Below are positions 1,593 to 15,969 of a stretch of DNA of 64,000 bases, piece after piece. The stretch comes from Imperialibacter roseus. GTDB lineage: Bacteria > Bacteroidota > Bacteroidia > Cytophagales > Cyclobacteriaceae. The DNA lies in the NCBI RefSeq assembly GCF_032999765.1, contig NZ_CP136051.1, positions 496,001 to 560,000 on the forward strand. Reading direction: 5' to 3'. Numbering within the stretch: the stretch's first letter is position 1; each line of letters starts with the position of its first letter. The notes beneath the pieces were generated by a model that saw only the letters and a list, made by a program, of their open reading frames with translations, ran no database searches and was not told the origin of the DNA. The position numbers were made by a program, and so were the translations under genes.

Positions 1593-4106
1593 TCACTTAC
1601 GCTCTTCAAATATCTTTCTAGCCTCTTTGATATCCTTAAGTACCCTGGTTTTTTCAGCTTCCGTATTCCACGTAGTAACAGCCGCAGCTGCTTCTTCAAT
1701 CCGATCAATCCAGGTGAGAAAGTAATCAGCGTCTTCAGCCGAATGTATGGGTTGCCCACCTACGTTTACAAACACCGCATTGGTAGTGGCATAAGGATAG
1801 ATATCGAGGACTTCAGGATTGGGTGCACTGTAAGCCCTGAGAAGCACCCAGGAACTGTTGGAAATATTCAAGGTTCCTGTGAAATCAGCAGTGGTACGGT
1901 CGCCGGTTAACGCAATGGTTTTCACCACCTTCCCATTTTGAATAATTTCCAGCTTGTCGATAGGCACAGAGGAGCGAACAAAGCCTTTGTAGCTGAGCTT
2001 CCCTTTTTTCGCAAGCGTTATGTCTCCGCCAGGGCCCTGGTTATCAAGACTAAACCCAAGGAGGGGCCCATTGCTGGCGAAAGTCTTCCCTTTCCTGATG
2101 CCATCAATGAATTTCTCATGGAGTAGCCGTTCATCGCCTTTCTCCATTTTCACAAACGCTCGTGTCAGACCAACAGGCCCCCGTAACGAGGCGTAATTGG
2201 CCATGGCGTCGGTGCCGCCAACAGGAGCCAGCCGAAAGCCACAGTTCATCAGCTTGTACCATACCCCGGCGGAAATATGATGATCGCTATACCCTACCGT
2301 CTCATAGTAGTCCACTTTGCCCAGTGCTACATCTACAGGCAAGGAAAAGCTCGTGGGCTTGCTGAGGTCAGGTTCGGTTTCAAAAGGATGCACGTAGCCC
2401 ACAATGCCGTTTTGGTCATGTGCGATGTCGGCCACCACAGTGTTGGAGGGGTAAGGGCTTTCGGTGCCTGTATGGGTATAGCCGACGTACCCTGGAAGAA
2501 GATAATTGGACGACATGCCCAGCAGACCAGTATGCCCCCAAAAGCTGGTGTGGTACTCTTGACCATGCATAATCAGGGTCTGTTCTTCTGAAGCATTGTC
2601 AGGATCCACAGAAAAATATTCAATATCCGGAATGCGCTGTTCTTTGTTCACCACAAGGTTGTATACGATGTCCAGGTCTTCTGCTTTAGCCTGCATGGCC
2701 AGGTGTGCTGGCGTATTGCGGTAGTGCCCGCCGTAGTTCATATGCACATGCACATCGGCTGACTTCCAGGTGCCGTGGTACGACGGAATGGTGGAGGGAG
2801 CCCATGAAAAAGCAATCTCTTTTTCCTCACCTGCTTTCACTGCGATGGTAGCATCATTTGCCTTTCGGAAGCCTTTCCAGGCGGTAATTTTTACCTCACC
2901 GACAGGCACCGTCACTTTCACTTCTCCTGGAGAATGGAAATAGTAGGTTTCAAATTTTTGTTTGCTTCGGTCAAAGGTCTCGTTGCCATGCATCCATGCA
3001 TCATCAGGTGCGAAGCTTTTGTCACCCACCATCACAGTCAGTCGGGCCGGAGTCGGTTGCTTGCTATCATTATAGGTTTTTATAATAATAGTTGCCGTTG
3101 GGTGGATGTACTTCTTTTCATTGATCAGCAATGACCACTTTTTACTGGTAAGCCAATCCATCAGGTAGAGTTCCGTGTTGCCTTGTTCATTGGTTATGTA
3201 GGCGATCTTGCTTCCGTCGGGTGACCATCGGGCATGAGTGGCGTCGAAATCGCCGTATCCCATGGCAATGGGGTAGCCTTTTTCATCGGCCGGAGTCATC
3301 CAGAGCTGGTGCCACTGCTGGCCGAGGTAAGACGAGTAAATAATGCGCTTGCCATCGGGCGACCAGTCGGGGCTGGCACGCCAGTTCGTTTCTTCCTCCC
3401 GTAGCAAAACAGGGTTGTAGTTGTTTACTTCGGTTCTATAAATATTGCCTGAGCCGTGCAGCACGTCGGGGTTGGTCACGAACACCAGCGACTTGCCATC
3501 GGGCGACCAGGAGGGACTCAGTTGGTGATCGGGCTGGCCATAGTAGTAGCGGGGAATGGCGGTGGTGCGCTCCGGAGAAAGAGGTTTAGCTGCCAGTCTA
3601 TTGTTGTTCAGGCTCCCTATCCAAATGCGGAAGTTGCCGGTTTCCTTGGTGGAAACAAAAGCTATTTGCGAGCCATCAGGGGAAAATCGAGGGTCGATAT
3701 TGACGGCGCTGCCTTCTGTAAGCTTGGTGATTTTGCCAGTAGACAAGTCCAGCAGGTGAAGCTCCATCGCATCGTTATCGTACCGAACAAACACGACGCT
3801 GTTTCCGTCCGGCGACCAGTCGGGCTGGTAGTCGTAGCCAGGCCCGTCTGTGATTTGGATGGCAGTGGTTTCATCTATTTTTTGCTGCCACAAGCTGCCA
3901 GCCATGGAGTAGATCAGGCTGGTGCCATCGGGTGACCAGGTGGCAGAAGAGGGGCCTGTGGTGAGCTGCGGCACATACATTTCCCGGTAATAGTAAGGGT
4001 GGGGGATGTCGATTTGGCTCAACACCCATGGCCTTTGCCCCAATAGAGGAGAGAATGAAAGCAGGCCAAAAAGCAAAAGGAGGTGCAGGCGTTTTTCCAT
4101 CCTCAC
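1593..4106 (-). CDS. Secreted TolB-like beta-propeller fused to a CehA/McbA-type PHP metallohydrolase
   Basis: An 837-residue protein with an N-terminal signal peptide (hydrophobic core about 7-22). Residues 50-310 hold six W/F-SPDG repeats (PD40 blades, as in TolB). After a linker comes a C-terminal PHP-type domain: ADVHVHMNYGGHY with the metal-binding HVH at 453-455, later GHTG, GYVHPFE and GGTDAMANYASLRGPVG. This is the CehA/McbA metallohydrolase arrangement, a family that includes carbaryl and carbofuran hydrolases but is mostly uncharacterised. The propeller probably binds a ligand or partner, and the PHP domain hydrolyses an ester or amide in the periplasm or outside the cell. It stands alone on its strand behind a stem-loop. 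The true substrate is unknown. Confidence 0.8.
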   Translation of the reverse strand: MRMEKRLHLLLLFGLLSFSPLLGQRPWVLSQIDIPHPYYYREMYVPQLTTGPSSATWSPDGTSLIYSMAGSLWQQKIDETTAIQITDGPGYDYQPDWSPDGNSVVFVRYDNDAMELHLLDLSTGKITKLTEGSAVNIDPRFSPDGSQIAFVSTKETGNFRIWIGSLNNNRLAAKPLSPERTTAIPRYYYGQPDHQLSPSWSPDGKSLVFVTNPDVLHGSGNIYRTEVNNYNPVLLREEETNWRASPDWSPDGKRIIYSSYLGQQWHQLWMTPADEKGYPIAMGYGDFDATHARWSPDGSKIAYITNEQGNTELYLMDWLTSKKWSLLINEKKYIHPTATIIIKTYNDSKQPTPARLTVMVGDKSFAPDDAWMHGNETFDRSKQKFETYYFHSPGEVKVTVPVGEVKITAWKGFRKANDATIAVKAGEEKEIAFSWAPSTIPSYHGTWKSADVHVHMNYGGHYRNTPAHLAMQAKAEDLDIVYNLVVNKEQRIPDIEYFSVDPDNASEEQTLIMHGQEYHTSFWGHTGLLGMSSNYLLPGYVGYTHTGTESPYPSNTVVADIAHDQNGIVGYVHPFETEPDLSKPTSFSLPVDVALGKVDYYETVGYSDHHISAGVWYKLMNCGFRLAPVGGTDAMANYASLRGPVGLTRAFVKMEKGDERLLHEKFIDGIRKGKTFASNGPLLGFSLDNQGPGGDITLAKKGKLSYKGFVRSSVPIDKLEIIQNGKVVKTIALTGDRTTADFTGTLNISNSSWVLLRAYSAPNPEVLDIYPYATTNAVFVNVGGQPIHSAEDADYFLTWIDRIEEAAAAVTTWNTEAEKTRVLKDIKEARKIFEERK

Positions 4107-4263
4107 TAGTTCGGAAAAAAGGCTGTGGTTTCAAAGATGTTTGATCGGAGTGGCCGCCTTGGCGATTAAATCTGACCAGCAGCCGTTGCATTTTGCACGG
4201 CTGTTTGAAACGACTCCTTCCTATATGGAACTCAGACAGTGCCAGGCTTCCCGGACATTTGAT

Positions 4264-6018
4264 TTAGCCCCAGGTATAGCTATCGAGTTTCTCCAGTATT
4301 TTGGTCAAAAATTGCGACATCTCATCGTCAGTGCCGTCCAACCTGCGACGCAGCCAAAAGCCAATGGCTATCTCCTCTGTGAAGTAATAGTAGTCATTGT
4401 TGTTCGTGGGAAATTCCTCATAATACTTAGAAAAAACACTATTTTTCAAGTCCTGAGTAGCGTAGCGGTCGTAGAGGTAGCCAGGACCGTAGAAGCCTTC
4501 GGATTGCATGGCGTTTTTGTAAGCCAAGGCCTCGCTCTCCCATTTATTGCCATCGGACAGATACTCGTAGCTGGTAGCCAGCATCCAAACCATTCGCCTG
4601 AAGGATACTCTGTAAATTTTTCCGGCTTCCTCTCCAAAAAACTGTTGGTTTGGTTCTGGGACGAGGTTGTTGCCCATCCAGCTTACGAAGTTAGGATTAA
4701 GTCTGCTGAAGGGCAGGTCGTTCAAGTCTCCAGTCGTCTGGTAAAGGTTGAACCCCGATGCTTCGGACACCGCCCTTTGCAGCGAGTAGGAATCAGCATT
4801 GGCATCTTCCGCTTTGAGGTATTGGCGAGCGCCATCGGGAAGGCTTGAGCGAAAAAGCGTAGCGAAATGAGCGTAAACGCCCATAGTGGTTCCGTTGATG
4901 GTTAGTTCTTCTGGTGAGGTGTTAAAATAAAAAGACTCTTCGCCAGGCAAAATAACGGCAACAAACCAGTCGAGCATCGACGTCAGGAACCTAGTCCGGT
5001 GTGCTTCATCAAGTGTAATTGGCCCGGTCTCTTCGTAAAACTCCATCGCAGGAGCCTCCGCCATATCGTCGCCGTCGTAGTACTCTTCCTCATAATATTC
5101 GTCTTCATAAACCTGGTTATCACCTGCATATAGCTGAGGAACCGGGTCGCTGTTTCTCAAAACGAACCTTTCTGTATTTCTATCATTGTCAAAAAAAGGC
5201 ACTTTGCGGATAAGGTAAAGCTCGTAGGCATTGACGGCTACCTCATCCTGAACGAAGATCATTTTTTTTGCCCAAACAGGAGGAAAGGAGGCGTACAGAT
5301 ACCCGTCCCTGTTTACCAGCGTAACCGTGTCGGATCGAAAGCAATCGCCTATACCCACTGCTTCATACTTGTCAGCAAAATAGGCAACCACCTTTCCGGG
5401 ACTGTTACCCTCTGTGGAAAGTCGGAATCCATCGAATTCGGTCAGTGCATTTAGGTGGACAATCGTGTATCCATCTATTGGGCCAGCGGCACTATTAGCG
5501 GAGTCGATGTACAATTCTCGGGTGACTGCATTGTTGGCATAGATGTAGCCAGCGGAAACAAAGATGGCCAGCCCAACAAATAGGCCGACCAATACGCCAT
5601 CGAACTTCGGCTTTGGAGTAGTATCTATGTCATTTGCCCAGGCCTTCACCGACTTGAAAAGCATGGTTGAGAAGATGAGTAGTGCATAGACGAAGAAGAG
5701 CAGTGCGTAGGCGAACATAATCAGAAACCCGTCCTTTCCAATATCATTGAGAACAGCCAACCCCTGGTACAAAATAGAAGCCGAATAAAGCAAGCCGACG
5801 GTGGCTGTAAGGTGAAGCATGGTGTATGACTTTGTTGAACCGGTCATCCACATAAGGCTGGAAATCAAAAACCAAACGCATGTGAAGCAGCTGGCCAATG
5901 CCCACCAGAAAGTGGCGAAGCCTGGCTGGAGGAAGACCAAAACTGATTGCAAAGCCAACCCGAAAAAAATCAGCAGGTTAAGAACCGCATAGATCCTGAA
6001 AACTATGGGAAACTTCAT
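4264..6018 (-). CDS. Unrecognised membrane protein with five N-terminal helices and a large soluble domain
   Basis: 584 residues, no family recognised. Hydrophobic segments lie near residues 8-32, 37-58, 66-86, 100-122 and 143-163. The remaining ~420 residues are hydrophilic. An acidic, tyrosine-rich low-complexity tract (EDEYYEEEYYDGDD) sits near residues 305-322. It resembles an inter-domain linker. The C-terminal part is rich in aromatic residues and may be a helical domain, ending in a conserved-looking leucine/tryptophan tail. ATG at 6018 starts directly in the first helix. The flanking genes are not close enough to argue for an operon. Existence of the gene is secure from its length; function is not. 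Confidence 0.7.
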   Translation of the reverse strand: MKFPIVFRIYAVLNLLIFFGLALQSVLVFLQPGFATFWWALASCFTCVWFLISSLMWMTGSTKSYTMLHLTATVGLLYSASILYQGLAVLNDIGKDGFLIMFAYALLFFVYALLIFSTMLFKSVKAWANDIDTTPKPKFDGVLVGLFVGLAIFVSAGYIYANNAVTRELYIDSANSAAGPIDGYTIVHLNALTEFDGFRLSTEGNSPGKVVAYFADKYEAVGIGDCFRSDTVTLVNRDGYLYASFPPVWAKKMIFVQDEVAVNAYELYLIRKVPFFDNDRNTERFVLRNSDPVPQLYAGDNQVYEDEYYEEEYYDGDDMAEAPAMEFYEETGPITLDEAHRTRFLTSMLDWFVAVILPGEESFYFNTSPEELTINGTTMGVYAHFATLFRSSLPDGARQYLKAEDANADSYSLQRAVSEASGFNLYQTTGDLNDLPFSRLNPNFVSWMGNNLVPEPNQQFFGEEAGKIYRVSFRRMVWMLATSYEYLSDGNKWESEALAYKNAMQSEGFYGPGYLYDRYATQDLKNSVFSKYYEEFPTNNNDYYYFTEEIAIGFWLRRRLDGTDDEMSQFLTKILEKLDSYTWG

Positions 6019-11689: not shown

Positions 11690-11740
11690 GGGGCGGAGAC
11701 CTTATGATAGAGCTTCTGGATTGTAATTCCAGAAGAGGGG
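11690..11740 (+). repeat. Palindromic element E1 (cassette-border family)
   Basis: Contains gagacc-ttatgatagag followed by a hairpin cttctgga (11713-11720) / tccagaag (11728-11735) and a G-rich end. It aligns with elements at 13693, 14371 and 16033: the shared core is GACCCTAtGATAGAcCTTCGGAATT followed by the return arm. It directly abuts the 3' end of the RT gene. E1 is the most diverged full-length copy. Confidence 0.6.
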
Positions 11741-11756
11741 TGTTCATTCCCCTCTT
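11733..11756 (-). terminator. Stem-loop across the RT stop codon
   Basis: aagagggg (11733-11740) pairs with cccctctt (11749-11756) around an 8-base loop. The stem covers the last codons and stop (11744-11746) of the RT gene and runs into element E1. It could stabilise or end the RT transcript. No uridine run follows on the RT strand. Confidence 0.4.
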
Positions 11757-13003
11757 TTGGAACGCACGAGCTCCATTAACAAAGGAATTCCTGAATTTTT
11801 TCTCTGAGCGGTTGACAGACAGTCGCCGCTTTCTCCTTTATTTCTGAAGTTCCTAGGAACTTTACCAATGGCTGTTTTGGTAAATCGCCAGTTAAACTTT
11901 CTGAGAGCGAGGTATAGCTGTCTACTTAAGTAATAATCAATTTCCTTTTTATATCGATCAATACTTGTGTAAAAGTATGCCGAAACCCAGCCATCGAAAA
12001 CATTGTAAATTTTTTCTAATAGTGAAAGAACTGTATACTGAATTTTTCCATTGCAGATATCCCTAATCTTGCTTTTTAAACGGTCAACATTTTCACGTGA
12101 AGGGTAGAATTGTTTGCCGTCGTATGTAATCGATAGAAATGTAAAGTACTCACCAGACAGGTTGATGATTTTTGTTTTTGTTTTATCATCTATCGGATGA
12201 ATTTCCAGATTCAATTTTTTGAGTATTACTTGACAATCAATATATGATTGTTGGCATTTGTCCTGATTGTCGCAAAGTACCACAAAATCATCTGCATATC
12301 TGACGAGGGCATAGCCTTTAGCACTCATTTCAAGATCAAAGGGAGACAGATATATATTCGAAAACAATGGAGAAAGTGCATTTCCCTGAGGAATTCCAGA
12401 ATTAAGGTTTTCGAAGTATTTTCGATCTTCCTTTTTAATCAATTCTAATCCTCCAACCTCTTGACTGAGGGAAGACATAATTAAATCATTGATAGAATCA
12501 TCAGGAAGTTGGGGTAATATTTGAAGCTTTAATAGGGAGTCTTTATTTACAGAGCCATAAAAGTCAATTATATCAGCCTCTAAGACATAATTATTGCCAG
12601 CGTTGTGTATTTCCTTTATTCGTTCAATGGCATCCCGAATTCCGGTATTCTTTTGGTATGCGAAACTAATTCCACTACTGGTTTTCAGTAGTGGTGTGAA
12701 TATATTCTCTAGTTCGATTGCTATAGATTTTATTACTAGGCGATCTGATACTTCAGGTACCTGTAACGGCCTCACTTTTCCATTTGATTTGGGAATTGCA
12801 ACAGCTCTTGTTTTTGAAAAGTAGTATTTGCCTGAAAGAAGCTTTTTTGAAATAGAAGAAATTTTGTCTTCAATGTTGTCTGAAAAAGTACGAATTGTCT
12901 CTCCAGATAAGCCATGGGAGGACTTGTTAAGTTTGTTGAGTTTGCCCCACGCATTTAGTAGATTGTGTTTACTAGCTATTTGGTCAAGCAGAGTTTGTTT
13001 CAT
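11744..13003 (-). CDS. Stand-alone reverse transcriptase, group II-intron-like, family unassigned
   Basis: 419 residues from ATG 13003. A TTG at 13099 is in frame but would put the start inside the upstream repeat. RT blocks in order: KSNGKVRPLQVPEVSDR (RT1), SSGISFAYQK (RT2), VLEADIIDFYGSV with the first catalytic Asp (RT3), SGIPQGNALSPLFSNIYL (RT4), VRYADDFVVLC with the YADD active site (RT5), LEIHPIDDKTK and FTFLSITYDG (RT6-7). The N-terminus and RT4 resemble group II intron RTs, but the tail is short, with no HNH nuclease and no intron domain V downstream. RT4 lacks the DGR pattern and RT7 lacks the retron VTG. The gene is visibly more A+T-rich than its neighbours, suggesting transfer. 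The long structured leader makes a defence-type RT with a partner RNA the best hypothesis. Confidence 0.85.
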   Translation of the reverse strand: MKQTLLDQIASKHNLLNAWGKLNKLNKSSHGLSGETIRTFSDNIEDKISSISKKLLSGKYYFSKTRAVAIPKSNGKVRPLQVPEVSDRLVIKSIAIELENIFTPLLKTSSGISFAYQKNTGIRDAIERIKEIHNAGNNYVLEADIIDFYGSVNKDSLLKLQILPQLPDDSINDLIMSSLSQEVGGLELIKKEDRKYFENLNSGIPQGNALSPLFSNIYLSPFDLEMSAKGYALVRYADDFVVLCDNQDKCQQSYIDCQVILKKLNLEIHPIDDKTKTKIINLSGEYFTFLSITYDGKQFYPSRENVDRLKSKIRDICNGKIQYTVLSLLEKIYNVFDGWVSAYFYTSIDRYKKEIDYYLSRQLYLALRKFNWRFTKTAIGKVPRNFRNKGESGDCLSTAQRKNSGIPLLMELVRSKRGE

Positions 13004-13069
13004 ATCTGTGTTGCAAAGGCCTAAGAAAGACATGGTTGCGTCCGTATGACAGCTCTTTACAATATAGGA

Positions 13070-13185
13070 ACAGAACATCTTATCGAGAAATAGAACCAAA
13101 TGACTAGAGCCGTTCGGAACCTATTACACCAAAGTTGTTCTAGGGCAATCCTGACCTTAGGTGTTAGAGTTCGCCTAAAGTCTAA
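13070..13185 (-). repeat. 116-bp direct repeat, copy 1 (next to the RT gene)
   Basis: Identical base for base to 13439-13554, which lies 369 bp away in the same orientation. Copy 1 ends 66 bp before the RT ATG. Read on the RT strand it begins ttagactttagg and holds a 9-bp stem (arms 13174-13182 and 13153-13161, 12-base loop). One pair in the stem is U-G on the RT strand but C-A on the other strand. Confidence 0.95.
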
Positions 13186-13290
13186 CGCTGGCTTGACTTG
13201 AAGTTCAAGCGAAATCTCTTGGGCGTTTTGGACTACAGTTTTTTGGATTGTCGACTTGTGTCCAGTTCGAAATAGTACGGTTTATCCATG

Positions 13291-13440
13291 TTATTCAAAT
13301 CTAGGTTTTTTCCTCACTTTCGCAAGTTTTTTTGAAAAATCGACTAATTGCTTGCACTCCTCACCAAATAAATGGCTTGATACCAACGTTTCCCTTGGCA
13401 ATGTGCTGTCATACACACTGGCATCAAACGAGATCTGCAC
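13291..13440 (-). CDS. Possible small or relict gene between the repeats
   Basis: A GTG lies exactly at the edge of repeat copy 2 (13440-13438). It opens a 49-residue frame starting MQISFDASVYDST and ending KVRKKPRFE, stop at 13293-13291. The composition looks protein-like (balanced charged and hydrophobic residues). The same frame is open upstream through the whole repeat to 13578 but has no ATG. One base after the stop, ATG 13289 opens an 18-codon frame (MDKPYYFELD...) ending at 13233. These may be remains of a gene that once shared the leader, a real small protein, or chance. No family was recognised and there is no clear ribosome site. Confidence 0.25.
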   Translation of the reverse strand: MQISFDASVYDSTLPRETLVSSHLFGEECKQLVDFSKKLAKVRKKPRFE

Positions 13441-13554
13441 AGAACATCTTATCGAGAAATAGAACCAAATGACTAGAGCCGTTCGGAACCTATTACACCA
13501 AAGTTGTTCTAGGGCAATCCTGACCTTAGGTGTTAGAGTTCGCCTAAAGTCTAA
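13439..13554 (-). repeat. 116-bp direct repeat, copy 2 (upstream copy)
   Basis: Second exact copy of the 116-bp unit. The flanks on both sides differ from those of copy 1, so identity stops sharply at the ends. The internal stem is at 13522-13551. A frame on the RT strand is open through the entire unit in both copies. It begins at 13578 for this copy and continues into the spacer. Confidence 0.95.
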
Positions 13555-13692
13555 TCCAAGTAAGTCAAAGAACTTATGTCACCAGTGACAATCTTTATGC
13601 CAGATGGTTAAGTCTGCCATTATGTCTGAGTGGAATGGTTTCAATCAGCCTCCGTAGAAGCTTAAATGAAATCGGATTAAGGTGTTTTATTC

Positions 13693-13743
13693 CGGGTCGC
13701 AAACCCTAAGATAGGCCTTCGGAATTACAAACCCTAAAGAGGA
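13693..13743 (+). repeat. Palindromic element E2
   Basis: Reads cgggtcgcaaaccctaagat, then aggccttcggaattacaa and accctaaagag. It aligns along its full length with element E4 at 16033. The first mini-hairpin keeps gggt/accc, while the return arm of the second hairpin has decayed. It lies between the RT leader and the 3' end of higA, in the same orientation as the other copies. Confidence 0.65.
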
Positions 13744-13756
13744 CTAAAAGTGGGCA

Positions 13757-14074
13757 CTATAAGGAGCCTTCAGTCGTTGACGCTTGTTTGATAGACTGCA
13801 ATTCACCTGAAATATTCGCCGTCTCTTCCTCCAGGTCATAGTAGTCCTGCAGACCGAGCCAAAACTTGGCGGTGGTGCCAAAGTACCGGCTCAATCGCAA
13901 AGCTGTATTTGCGGTAATTCGCCGGTTTCCTTTCAGGATCTCACTGATCCAGTTTTGAGGCACCTGAATGTCTTTGGAGAGTTTATAGGCACTAATGCCC
14001 AAAGGCGACAGAAACTCTTCTGCCAGCACCTCTCCGGGGTGAATATTGGGTAGTTTTTCTGTTGTGTCCATCAT
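13757..14074 (-). CDS. higA: HigA-family antitoxin (XRE-type helix-turn-helix)
   Basis: 105 residues; ATG at 14074 overlaps the stop of the upstream gene (TAATG), with a second ATG one codon later. Starts NIHPGEVLAEEFLSPLGISAYKLSKDI, then the helix-turn-helix VPQNWISEILKGNRRITANTALRLSRYFGTTAKFWL in outline, the classic HigA/VapI addiction-module pattern. It would neutralise the HigB RNase and repress the operon promoter. Toxin-first gene order is the normal order for higBA. The pair lies between palindromic elements E2 and E3 in the accessory block. Confidence 0.9.
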   Translation of the reverse strand: MMDTTEKLPNIHPGEVLAEEFLSPLGISAYKLSKDIQVPQNWISEILKGNRRITANTALRLSRYFGTTAKFWLGLQDYYDLEEETANISGELQSIKQASTTEGSL

Positions 14075-14268
14075 TAGTGATAGTCTATAATTTCAACCAA
14101 TGTGGCGTTTCCATCTGCCCAATTAAAAATGATCCGCCATTGGTCGTTTATCCTGATACTGTAGTAGTCTTTTAAATTGCCGCTAAGTTTCTCCAGCCTG
14201 TTGGAAGGAGGTATCCCCATAGCTCTCGTTTGCAACGAGGGCTGCTGAGATCTGCGCTGGTAGCGCAT
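14074..14268 (-). CDS. higB: HigB-type toxin (RelE/ParE fold), short and probably N-terminally truncated
   Basis: 64 residues from ATG 14268. The C-terminal half is convincing: IPPSNRLEKLSGNLKDYYSIRINDQWRIIF followed by ADGNATLVEIIDYH in outline, as in HigB mRNA interferases. HigB proteins are usually about 92 residues, and roughly 30 N-terminal residues (the usual KSFKHKGLEKF-like start) are missing. An in-frame TGA lies two codons before the ATG, so the frame cannot be extended. The upstream DNA shows no clear N-terminal coding in another frame. It may be an inactive remnant with a still intact antitoxin, or a naturally short variant. Confidence 0.75.
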   Translation of the reverse strand: MRYQRRSQQPSLQTRAMGIPPSNRLEKLSGNLKDYYSIRINDQWRIIFNWADGNATLVEIIDYH

Positions 14269-14535: not shown

Positions 14536-15969
14536 ATGACTTTACAGTCTGTATCGGAGAAGCAAATCATAGAACGCCTCAAGTTTGAGAACCCGTGGTG
14601 GGTCACCGGGGCGATCGAGGATTTCTATAACGAGATGCCCAGGAGGCTGTATTTCGGCCTGTTCAAAACGCTGGCCTACGAAACGGAGGTGCGCAGGGCC
14701 CTGATATTGATGGGGCCACGGCGGGTGGGCAAAACAGTCATGCTGTATCATACCGTGCAGGATTTGATTGCTTCAGGTGTTCCCGCCAATAAGATCATCT
14801 TTATTACGGTGGAAAGCCCTGTTTATCTGAATGTAGGGCTGGAGCAAATGCTGCAATACGCCATGACGGCAGCTGGCCAGGAAGAGCTGTCTGGTCTTTA
14901 TGTGTTCTTCGACGAGGTTCAATACCTGAAAAACTGGGAGGTTCACCTCAAGTCGCTGGTTGACAGCTACCGGACATGCAAATTCATAGCGTCGGGTTCA
15001 GCGGCAGCGGCGTTAAAGTACAAGAGCTTGGAAAGCGGGGCGGGCCGGTTCACGGATTTCCTGCTTCCGCCGCTCACCTTCAACGAGTACATCCATTTGA
15101 AAGGGCTGGAAAATTTAATCAGGCCTTCAAAGGTAGCCTGGCGGGGGGCTGATATCGACTTCTATTCTACCACCCATATTGAGGAGCTCAATAAACATTT
15201 TATTGACTACATGAATTTTGGAGGCTACCCGGAAGTCATTTTTTCGGAGAAGATTCAGGCCAACCCGGGGCGGTTTATCAGGCAGGATGTGATCGACAAG
15301 GTGCTGCTGAGGGATTTGCCAAGTTTGTATGGCATTCGGGATGTGCAGGAGTTGAACTCGCTGTTTACCACCATTGCGTACAATACTGGCAACGAGTTTT
15401 CGCTGGAGACGCTGAGTAAAGAATCGGGAGGCGTGAAGAAGCAGACGATCAAGACCTATGTCGAGTATTTGGAGTCTGCGTTTTTGATCAAGACGGTCAG
15501 AAGAGTAGGGCAGGATGCCAAGCGGTTTCAGCGGGATAACTTTTTTAAGATGTACCTCACCAACCCATCCCTTCGGGCGGCTTTGTTCTCGCCTATGTCC
15601 GCCACCGACGATATGATTGGCAACATGGTGGAAACGGCGATCTATGCCCAATGGATGCACCGTGACTGGTTCACTCCGTGGTATGCCAGGTGGCAAAATG
15701 GGGAAGTGGATTTGGTTGCTCTGTCGGAGGCTAAGTTTGAGCCGCTGTGGGCGCTGGAGGTGAAGTGGTCGAACAGGTACTTCGAAAAGCCCAGAGCGTT
15801 AAAAAGTTTGCTGAAGTTCAGTGCCGAAAATGGTCTGAAACATGTGCTGGTGACCACCATCGATAAGGAAGGAAGCAAAGAGCTTGAGGGAGTCAGTTTG
15901 CACTATTTTCCGGCAGCCACTTATGCTTATACCGTTGGCAAGAATACTTTGAAAATGAAGGGCGGGTAA
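14536..15969 (+). CDS. AAA-type ATPase with DUF4143 domain
   Basis: 477 residues. Walker A GPRRVGKT at 60-67, Walker B YVFFDEVQYLKNW, sensor-like SGSAAAALK, then AGRFTDFLLPPLTFNEY. The C-terminal half fits DUF4143 with a winged-helix-like stretch (KESGGVKKQTIKTYVEYLESAFLI) and a PD-(D/E)XK-like region near NGEVDLVAL...LWALEVKWS. The family is abundant in accessory regions of bacteria and archaea, with functions still unclear. Divergent from higB and placed between palindromic elements E3 and E4. Cytosolic. Confidence 0.88.
   Translation: MTLQSVSEKQIIERLKFENPWWVTGAIEDFYNEMPRRLYFGLFKTLAYETEVRRALILMGPRRVGKTVMLYHTVQDLIASGVPANKIIFITVESPVYLNVGLEQMLQYAMTAAGQEELSGLYVFFDEVQYLKNWEVHLKSLVDSYRTCKFIASGSAAAALKYKSLESGAGRFTDFLLPPLTFNEYIHLKGLENLIRPSKVAWRGADIDFYSTTHIEELNKHFIDYMNFGGYPEVIFSEKIQANPGRFIRQDVIDKVLLRDLPSLYGIRDVQELNSLFTTIAYNTGNEFSLETLSKESGGVKKQTIKTYVEYLESAFLIKTVRRVGQDAKRFQRDNFFKMYLTNPSLRAALFSPMSATDDMIGNMVETAIYAQWMHRDWFTPWYARWQNGEVDLVALSEAKFEPLWALEVKWSNRYFEKPRALKSLLKFSAENGLKHVLVTTIDKEGSKELEGVSLHYFPAATYAYTVGKNTLKMKGG

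Follow-up and report, generated by a model that had tools for sequence, protein, structure and literature searches.

A stand-alone lineage of group-II-like reverse transcriptases preceded by a leader with long direct repeats

Introduction

What does a stand-alone reverse transcriptase (RT) do with a leader of some 750 bp in which the same long sequence occurs twice? The question is raised by a locus of Imperialibacter roseus, which we analysed within a 64,000-nucleotide stretch of contig NZ_CP136051.1 (positions 496,001 to 560,000; hereafter the window, with positions counted from its first letter). An earlier note, made from the letters alone, had described a YADD-bearing RT behind a leader of about 750 bp that held two exact 116-bp repeats, and we found both the gene and the repeats in place. 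Our preferred reading, to which we give a probability of about 0.45, is that a stand-alone group-II-like RT copies an RNA of the form R-U-R and that strand transfer through the homology of R yields tandem-repeat cDNA in phage defence.

Results

The reverse transcriptase and its leader

Between the HigA stop (13757) and the RT start lies a leader of 753 bp. The RT start was set by alignment with homologues, and the repeats were delimited by sequence comparison. The features of this region are as follows.

11744..13003, minus strand: RT gene, from ATG 13003 to the stop at 11744, 419 amino acids
13439..13554, minus strand: R1, 116-nt direct repeat, 5' in the leader transcript
13186..13438, minus strand: U, unique segment of 253 nt between R1 and R2
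13070..13185, minus strand: R2, 116-nt direct repeat adjoining the RT gene, an exact copy of R1 with a counterpart in all three homologues
13296..13326, minus strand: candidate Bacteroidota-type promoter in U, CTTG-N19-TAGATTTG, a consensus match only
11714..11754, minus strand: two hairpins at the RT stop (GAGGGG..CCCCTC and CTTCTGG..CCAGAAG), a possible transcript end read from the sequence

All elements are encoded on the minus strand and would be transcribed in the order R1-U-R2-RT. R1 and R2 are identical over 116 bp, with a start-to-start spacing of 369. No other direct repeat of 80 nt or longer was found within 150-900 bp anywhere in the 64-kb window, and neither R nor U has a further copy there. 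Across about 710 kb (overlapping loci counted), repeats of this type occurred at the loci of the RT clade described below, at L033 and at the identical pair L051/L062; apart from these last exceptions of the wider scan, about 50 other RT loci had no comparable near-exact upstream repeat. The repeats of L033, a viral contig, are imperfect and DGR-like (about 3849-4532, before the RT, 594 apart, 91% identical). L068, another viral contig, has imperfect direct repeats before its RT, 650 apart, that resemble the variable and template repeats of DGRs.

The catalytic YADD of the RT is encoded at about 12287-12298 and is present in all four clade RTs in the homologue alignment, and the C-terminus carries a conserved QR..SG.P motif. 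Profile searches found no D/En domain and, of the maturase domain, a weak match alone (16.9 bits against the X/maturase domain model, cut-off 23). The gene is single-copy in the 6.75-Mb genome. An AlphaFold model (pLDDT 84.5) comprises a complete RT; its nearest structure is the GsI-IIC RT (TM 0.73), including the template-switching complex 7k9y, and it is also near the G2L4 RT (TM 0.71; about 24% identity in the structural alignment). The predicted fold is that of a full-length group-II-like RT.

Homologues keep the repeats and their spacing

We searched about 2,000 genome slots with protein and profile searches and found three homologues of the RT, at 43-46% amino acid identity. They scored 685-722 bits against the family profile, and the next RT scored 205. 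Beyond these four members, none was found in the viral, phage, plasmid, family, order, class, phylum and genus collections, and the family is rare, at about one per several hundred Bacteroidota genomes. One genome (G296, C1) had 12 or more matches to RTs of the group II-like kind, several with identical scores, and group II introns seem to be actively expanding there. The repeats of the four loci compare as follows.

Window: repeats of 116 nt, 100% identical, spacing 369
G181:C9 (L004/L019): RT 46% identity; repeats of 112 nt, 97% identical, spacing 371
G400:C7 (L018/L020): RT 44% identity; repeats of 92 nt, 99% identical, spacing 381
G752:C2 (L022/L066): RT 43% identity; repeats of 109 nt, 98% identical, spacing 348

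The layout R1-U-R2-RT was thus present in all four clade members, with the repeats directly before the RT and the spacing held at 348-381. It is not due to chance. The repeats have diverged strongly between species while staying near-identical inside each locus, which indicates either concerted evolution of the two copies or selection that keeps them identical. Close homologues lacking a conserved leader would have refuted the earlier note; the comparison of leaders instead revealed a conserved one, with the element duplicated in 4 out of 4 loci.

Concerted evolution of the repeats, together with the order R1-R2-RT, which equals the VR-TR-RT order of a DGR, would fit a DGR-like or retrohoming element in which R2 is the template repeat and R1 a variable copy, the two kept alike by cDNA-mediated conversion. 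However, just three of the six R1/R2 differences across all loci fall on an A in R2, and no recognisable target gene has R1 as its 3' terminus. In the R-containing frame, Pfam gave no match. With no A bias among the differences, the DGR reading of R1/R2 was rejected, and we consider an element of this kind extremely unlikely.

The reverse transcriptases form a new group-II-like lineage

The best sequence matches of the RT were group II RTs. It scored 215 bits against NCBIfam TIGR04416, under the cut-off of 300, and viral intron-type RTs scored 340-401. The best PADLOC UG model gave 137 bits, below the 206 bits of the generic RT model. That model was UG17, and its score lies inside the range of 111-175 bits of group II and RT-Cas1 cross-hits; membership of UG17 was rejected, the match being a cross-hit equal to group II and RT-Cas1 scores. 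A profile search matched none of Drt2-5 (63 bits against Drt2, cut-off 390), and the score against the retron RT model NF038233 was 69.8 bits (cut-off 235). A general Rfam scan gave no match to a retron msr/msd, and no Cas1 domain was found within the 419 amino acids. The profile scores and the lack of A bias agree with the earlier note, which could assign the RT neither to retrons or DGRs nor to any named DRT.

The same note had proposed a phylogenetic placement of the RT. In the tree, the four RTs formed one clade (support 100/100) on a long stem, separate from the Rfam-confirmed group II introns and from RT-Cas1; the clustering with group II introns that would have counted against the note was not seen. 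The four RTs are a new stand-alone group-II-like lineage and no member of DRT2, DRT10, retrons, DGRs, G2L4 or group II introns.

The group-II-like sequence and fold of the RT would also be expected of a decayed or domesticated group II intron ORF that has no RNA partner, with the repeats a by-product of insertion or local duplication. Using cmscan, we obtained zero Rfam matches in the window, as the earlier claim of no intron RNA had it; group-II-D1D4 RNA was detected at 5 out of 5 control intron loci, whereas none of the four clade loci had it. In G181, the RT stop directly adjoins a convergent gene, so that DV/DVI could not fit in between. In addition, the catalytic motif is intact, and the repeats and their spacing are kept in four distant loci with unrelated contexts. 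The decayed-ORF explanation is already disfavoured by these results, and we regard it as very unlikely.

The leader is conserved and predicted to fold

Two further elements of the leader are predicted to form hairpins.

13371..13429, minus strand: predicted hairpin at the 5' end of U, directly after R1, folding in four species
13010..13064, minus strand: conserved element with a predicted hairpin between R2 and the RT start

The sense strand of the R-U-R-tail region folded better than dinucleotide shuffles in all four species (z -3.3, -2.2, -2.6 and -2.5), and the corresponding antisense values were 0.2, -0.8, -1.9 and -2.3. For U, RNAalifold gave z -4.8 with three species and -10 with four, and 0 out of 60 column shuffles were as stable, although the antisense of U scored too (-5.2 with three species and -4.5 with four). 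For the hairpin after R1, the fold z values in the four species were -2.6, -0.8, -1.5 and -3.6; its named pairs could form in 92% of cells, compared with 25-47% for slid versions, and two pairs were altered on both sides (three species). The element after R2 showed 73% mean column identity (three species), had the same predicted stem in the window and G181, and was paired in 90% of cells with no compensatory change. With few two-sided changes, the evidence for leader structure is moderate, not strong. The earlier suggestion of a structured leader is supported by nucleotide-level conservation and these predicted hairpins.

The repeat alone had no RNAalifold support; it folded somewhat better than shuffles in 4 out of 4 species (z -1.7 to -3.2). 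This slight folding preference, in a leader conserved and structured at the nucleotide level, raises the alternative that R is duplicated for a structural or protein-binding role, for instance as a pair of RT-binding sites through which an oligomer assembles, and that any cDNA is non-repetitive. Binding sites, however, would not need 97-100% identity over 92-116 nt, and structure is usually kept as sequence drifts. We consider this explanation doubtful, though it deserves weight.

Long direct repeats also recombine readily, and U of the window holds the candidate promoter, with a homologous near-match in G400. R1 and R2 might therefore act as a DNA-level switch, in which their recombination deletes or amplifies U and the promoter and turns the RT off or up (phase variation). 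The RT, whose fold is near that of the G2L4 RT, would then work on other substrates, for example in repair as G2L4 does. But the two-copy form was found in all four assemblies, U contains conserved hairpins, and loss of U would be irreversible. A switch of this kind is unlikely, and copying of an R-U-R RNA with strand transfer remains our preferred reading.

A permuted open frame in the R-U unit

When the R-U unit was read as a circle, a sense frame was open over 119, 112, 117 and 111 codons, in the same register in all four species. In the window, it would be split into two parts.

13070..13281, minus strand: 5' part of the hypothetical permuted ORF, from U into R2
13291..13554, minus strand: 3' part of the hypothetical permuted ORF, from R1 into U, ending in TAA

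The frame was open on both inner sides and mostly closed on the outer sides, as for a permuted gene, and G181 has a stop in R2 and none in R1. Its openness by itself had a p of about 0.018, and raw protein similarity reached a z of up to 9. However, translated similarity was as high or higher in other frames (z 15.8 in frame +1 versus 10.9 in frame 0), and identity by codon position was flat (.47/.54/.46, compared with.51/.68/.35 for the RT). Since similarity is not frame-specific and codon positions are flat, conservation of the leader lies at the nucleotide level. Pfam gave no match to the frame. The permuted gene was demoted as the main reading, its codon-level support having failed.

What it would mean can still be stated: transfer from R1 to R2 would make a concatemer in which the permuted gene (111-119 amino acids, with a hydrophobic segment in R and a basic tail) becomes continuous, which we think improbable. 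If true, a gene joined by concatemerisation would mean that a group-II-like RT had arrived independently, by an LTR-like route, at de novo gene assembly in the manner of DRT2. At 13236-13292 of the window, an ATG past the stop of the R1 frame is followed by an A6 run, in frame +1 relative to the R frame. The ATG and the A6 run are present in all four species, and A6 runs are common in U; a (-1) frameshift start or chance are both possible.

Neighbouring genes

The earlier note had also pointed to a toxin-antitoxin pair and an accessory ATPase beside the RT.

14074..14268, minus strand: HigB-like toxin, with only the C-terminal half of PF05015 matched (44-91/91)
14536..15969, plus strand: AAA_14/DUF4143 ATPase, matching the PADLOC candidate defence model PDC-S01 at 198 bits

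The HigA antitoxin next to the leader is intact and the ATPase is real, but HigB has no N-terminal half, and no open frame for the missing part was found upstream; judged by sequence, the pair appears to be a decayed toxin with a kept antitoxin. As evidence of defence, a truncated HigB and an ATPase that matches only a candidate model are weak.

Known anti-phage systems lie directly beside the RT in two of the three homologues. The RT of G181 adjoins IetS/IetA (1005 and 475 bits), and that of G400 lies between the type I restriction subunit HsdR (1399 bits) and ZorA2/B2/E2. The proposal that an RT with its RNA has the layout of a defence system gains from these homologues, while the window's own neighbours add little. 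In G752, we recognised no defence neighbours, and housekeeping genes such as recA were found.

The gene order of G400 (L020, 4868-14145) is HsdR, a small metalloprotease-like ORF, the RT and ZorA/ZorB/ZorE (Zorya type II). Downstream of the RT locus of G752 (L022, 3974-4040) is a DUF805 cis-regulatory RNA (RF03081, 68.6 bits).

Discussion

A proposed route to repeat cDNA

In the strand-transfer reading, a domesticated RT would be paired with an upstream structured ncRNA of the order 5'-R1-U-R2-tail hairpin-(RT mRNA). The RT would start near the conserved tail element and copy R2, U and R1. Once the template's 5' end is reached, the newly made R1 cDNA would re-anneal to the identical R2, and this strand transfer would give a cDNA of tandem repeats that recur every 350-380 nt or so (about 369 in the window). 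The cDNA, or a cDNA-RNP, would act against phage. For this R-U-R system, we infer transcription, templating, strand transfer, the repeat cDNA and the role in defence alike. Counting against the reading are the small number of members (only four), the modest support for structure, G752 without defence neighbours, and an RT that belongs to none of the UG classes known to synthesise repeats. To our knowledge, repeat-templated cDNA synthesis in bacterial immunity has so far been described in UG-class RTs.

If the reading is true, a second RT lineage, near group II introns and with a giant R-U-R template, would mean that the strategy arose more than once, here by an LTR-like route, and the enzyme would be a naturally occurring RT adapted to switching templates over long stretches of homology. 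Immunity by an RT and a template RNA is itself already known; what is added here is an R-U-R leader on a new RT lineage. In the open-access literature, with subscription papers and most preprints outside the scope, our searches turned up no account of an RT whose leader carries long terminal direct repeats.

Comparison with known systems

The RT of the window shares the RT0-to-thumb fold with the RTs of mobile group II introns (GsI-IIC and others), which provide its top sequence and structure matches, but differs in having no ribozyme RNA, a weak X/maturase domain and a single copy in its genome. G2L4 RT is a domesticated group II-like RT that acts in repair (PMC12337344), with YIDD as its hallmark (PMC4244168). 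The clade RT resembles it in standing alone with no intron RNA and in size and fold; in contrast, it has YADD, not YIDD, and a conserved leader RNA that ends in repeats.

DRT10 consists of a UG17 RT, an ncRNA and SLATT, and A-B-A' homology in its template, through which nascent cDNA can re-anneal, is necessary and sufficient for repeat addition (PMC12632851). The clade is similar in its upstream RNA, a putative template, and in direct repeats on a plan like A-B-A', whose homology would set the re-annealing, whereas its RT lies outside UG17, and no SLATT gene was recognised among the part of the neighbouring ORFs that was scanned. The scale also differs: DRT10 has an A of 2-4 nt and a B of 5 nt, compared with 92-116 nt for R and about 240-290 nt for U. 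Repeat addition by DRT10 was undetectable with B swapped for a 20-mer (PMC12632851), which, given the length of U, counts against the strand-transfer reading.

The template of DRT2 lies between two ACA motifs, and the cDNA copied from it is concatemeric (PMC12039810). Both systems combine an RT with an upstream structured RNA in which copies of a motif flank the template (putative here), and they differ in the long repeats of the RT clade. In DRT2, the neo frame runs antisense to the ncRNA and has no end; the permuted frame described above runs in the sense direction, contains stops and shows no codon conservation. By analogy, R1-U-R2 may work like DRT2 and DRT10, as the same logic at the scale of an LTR.
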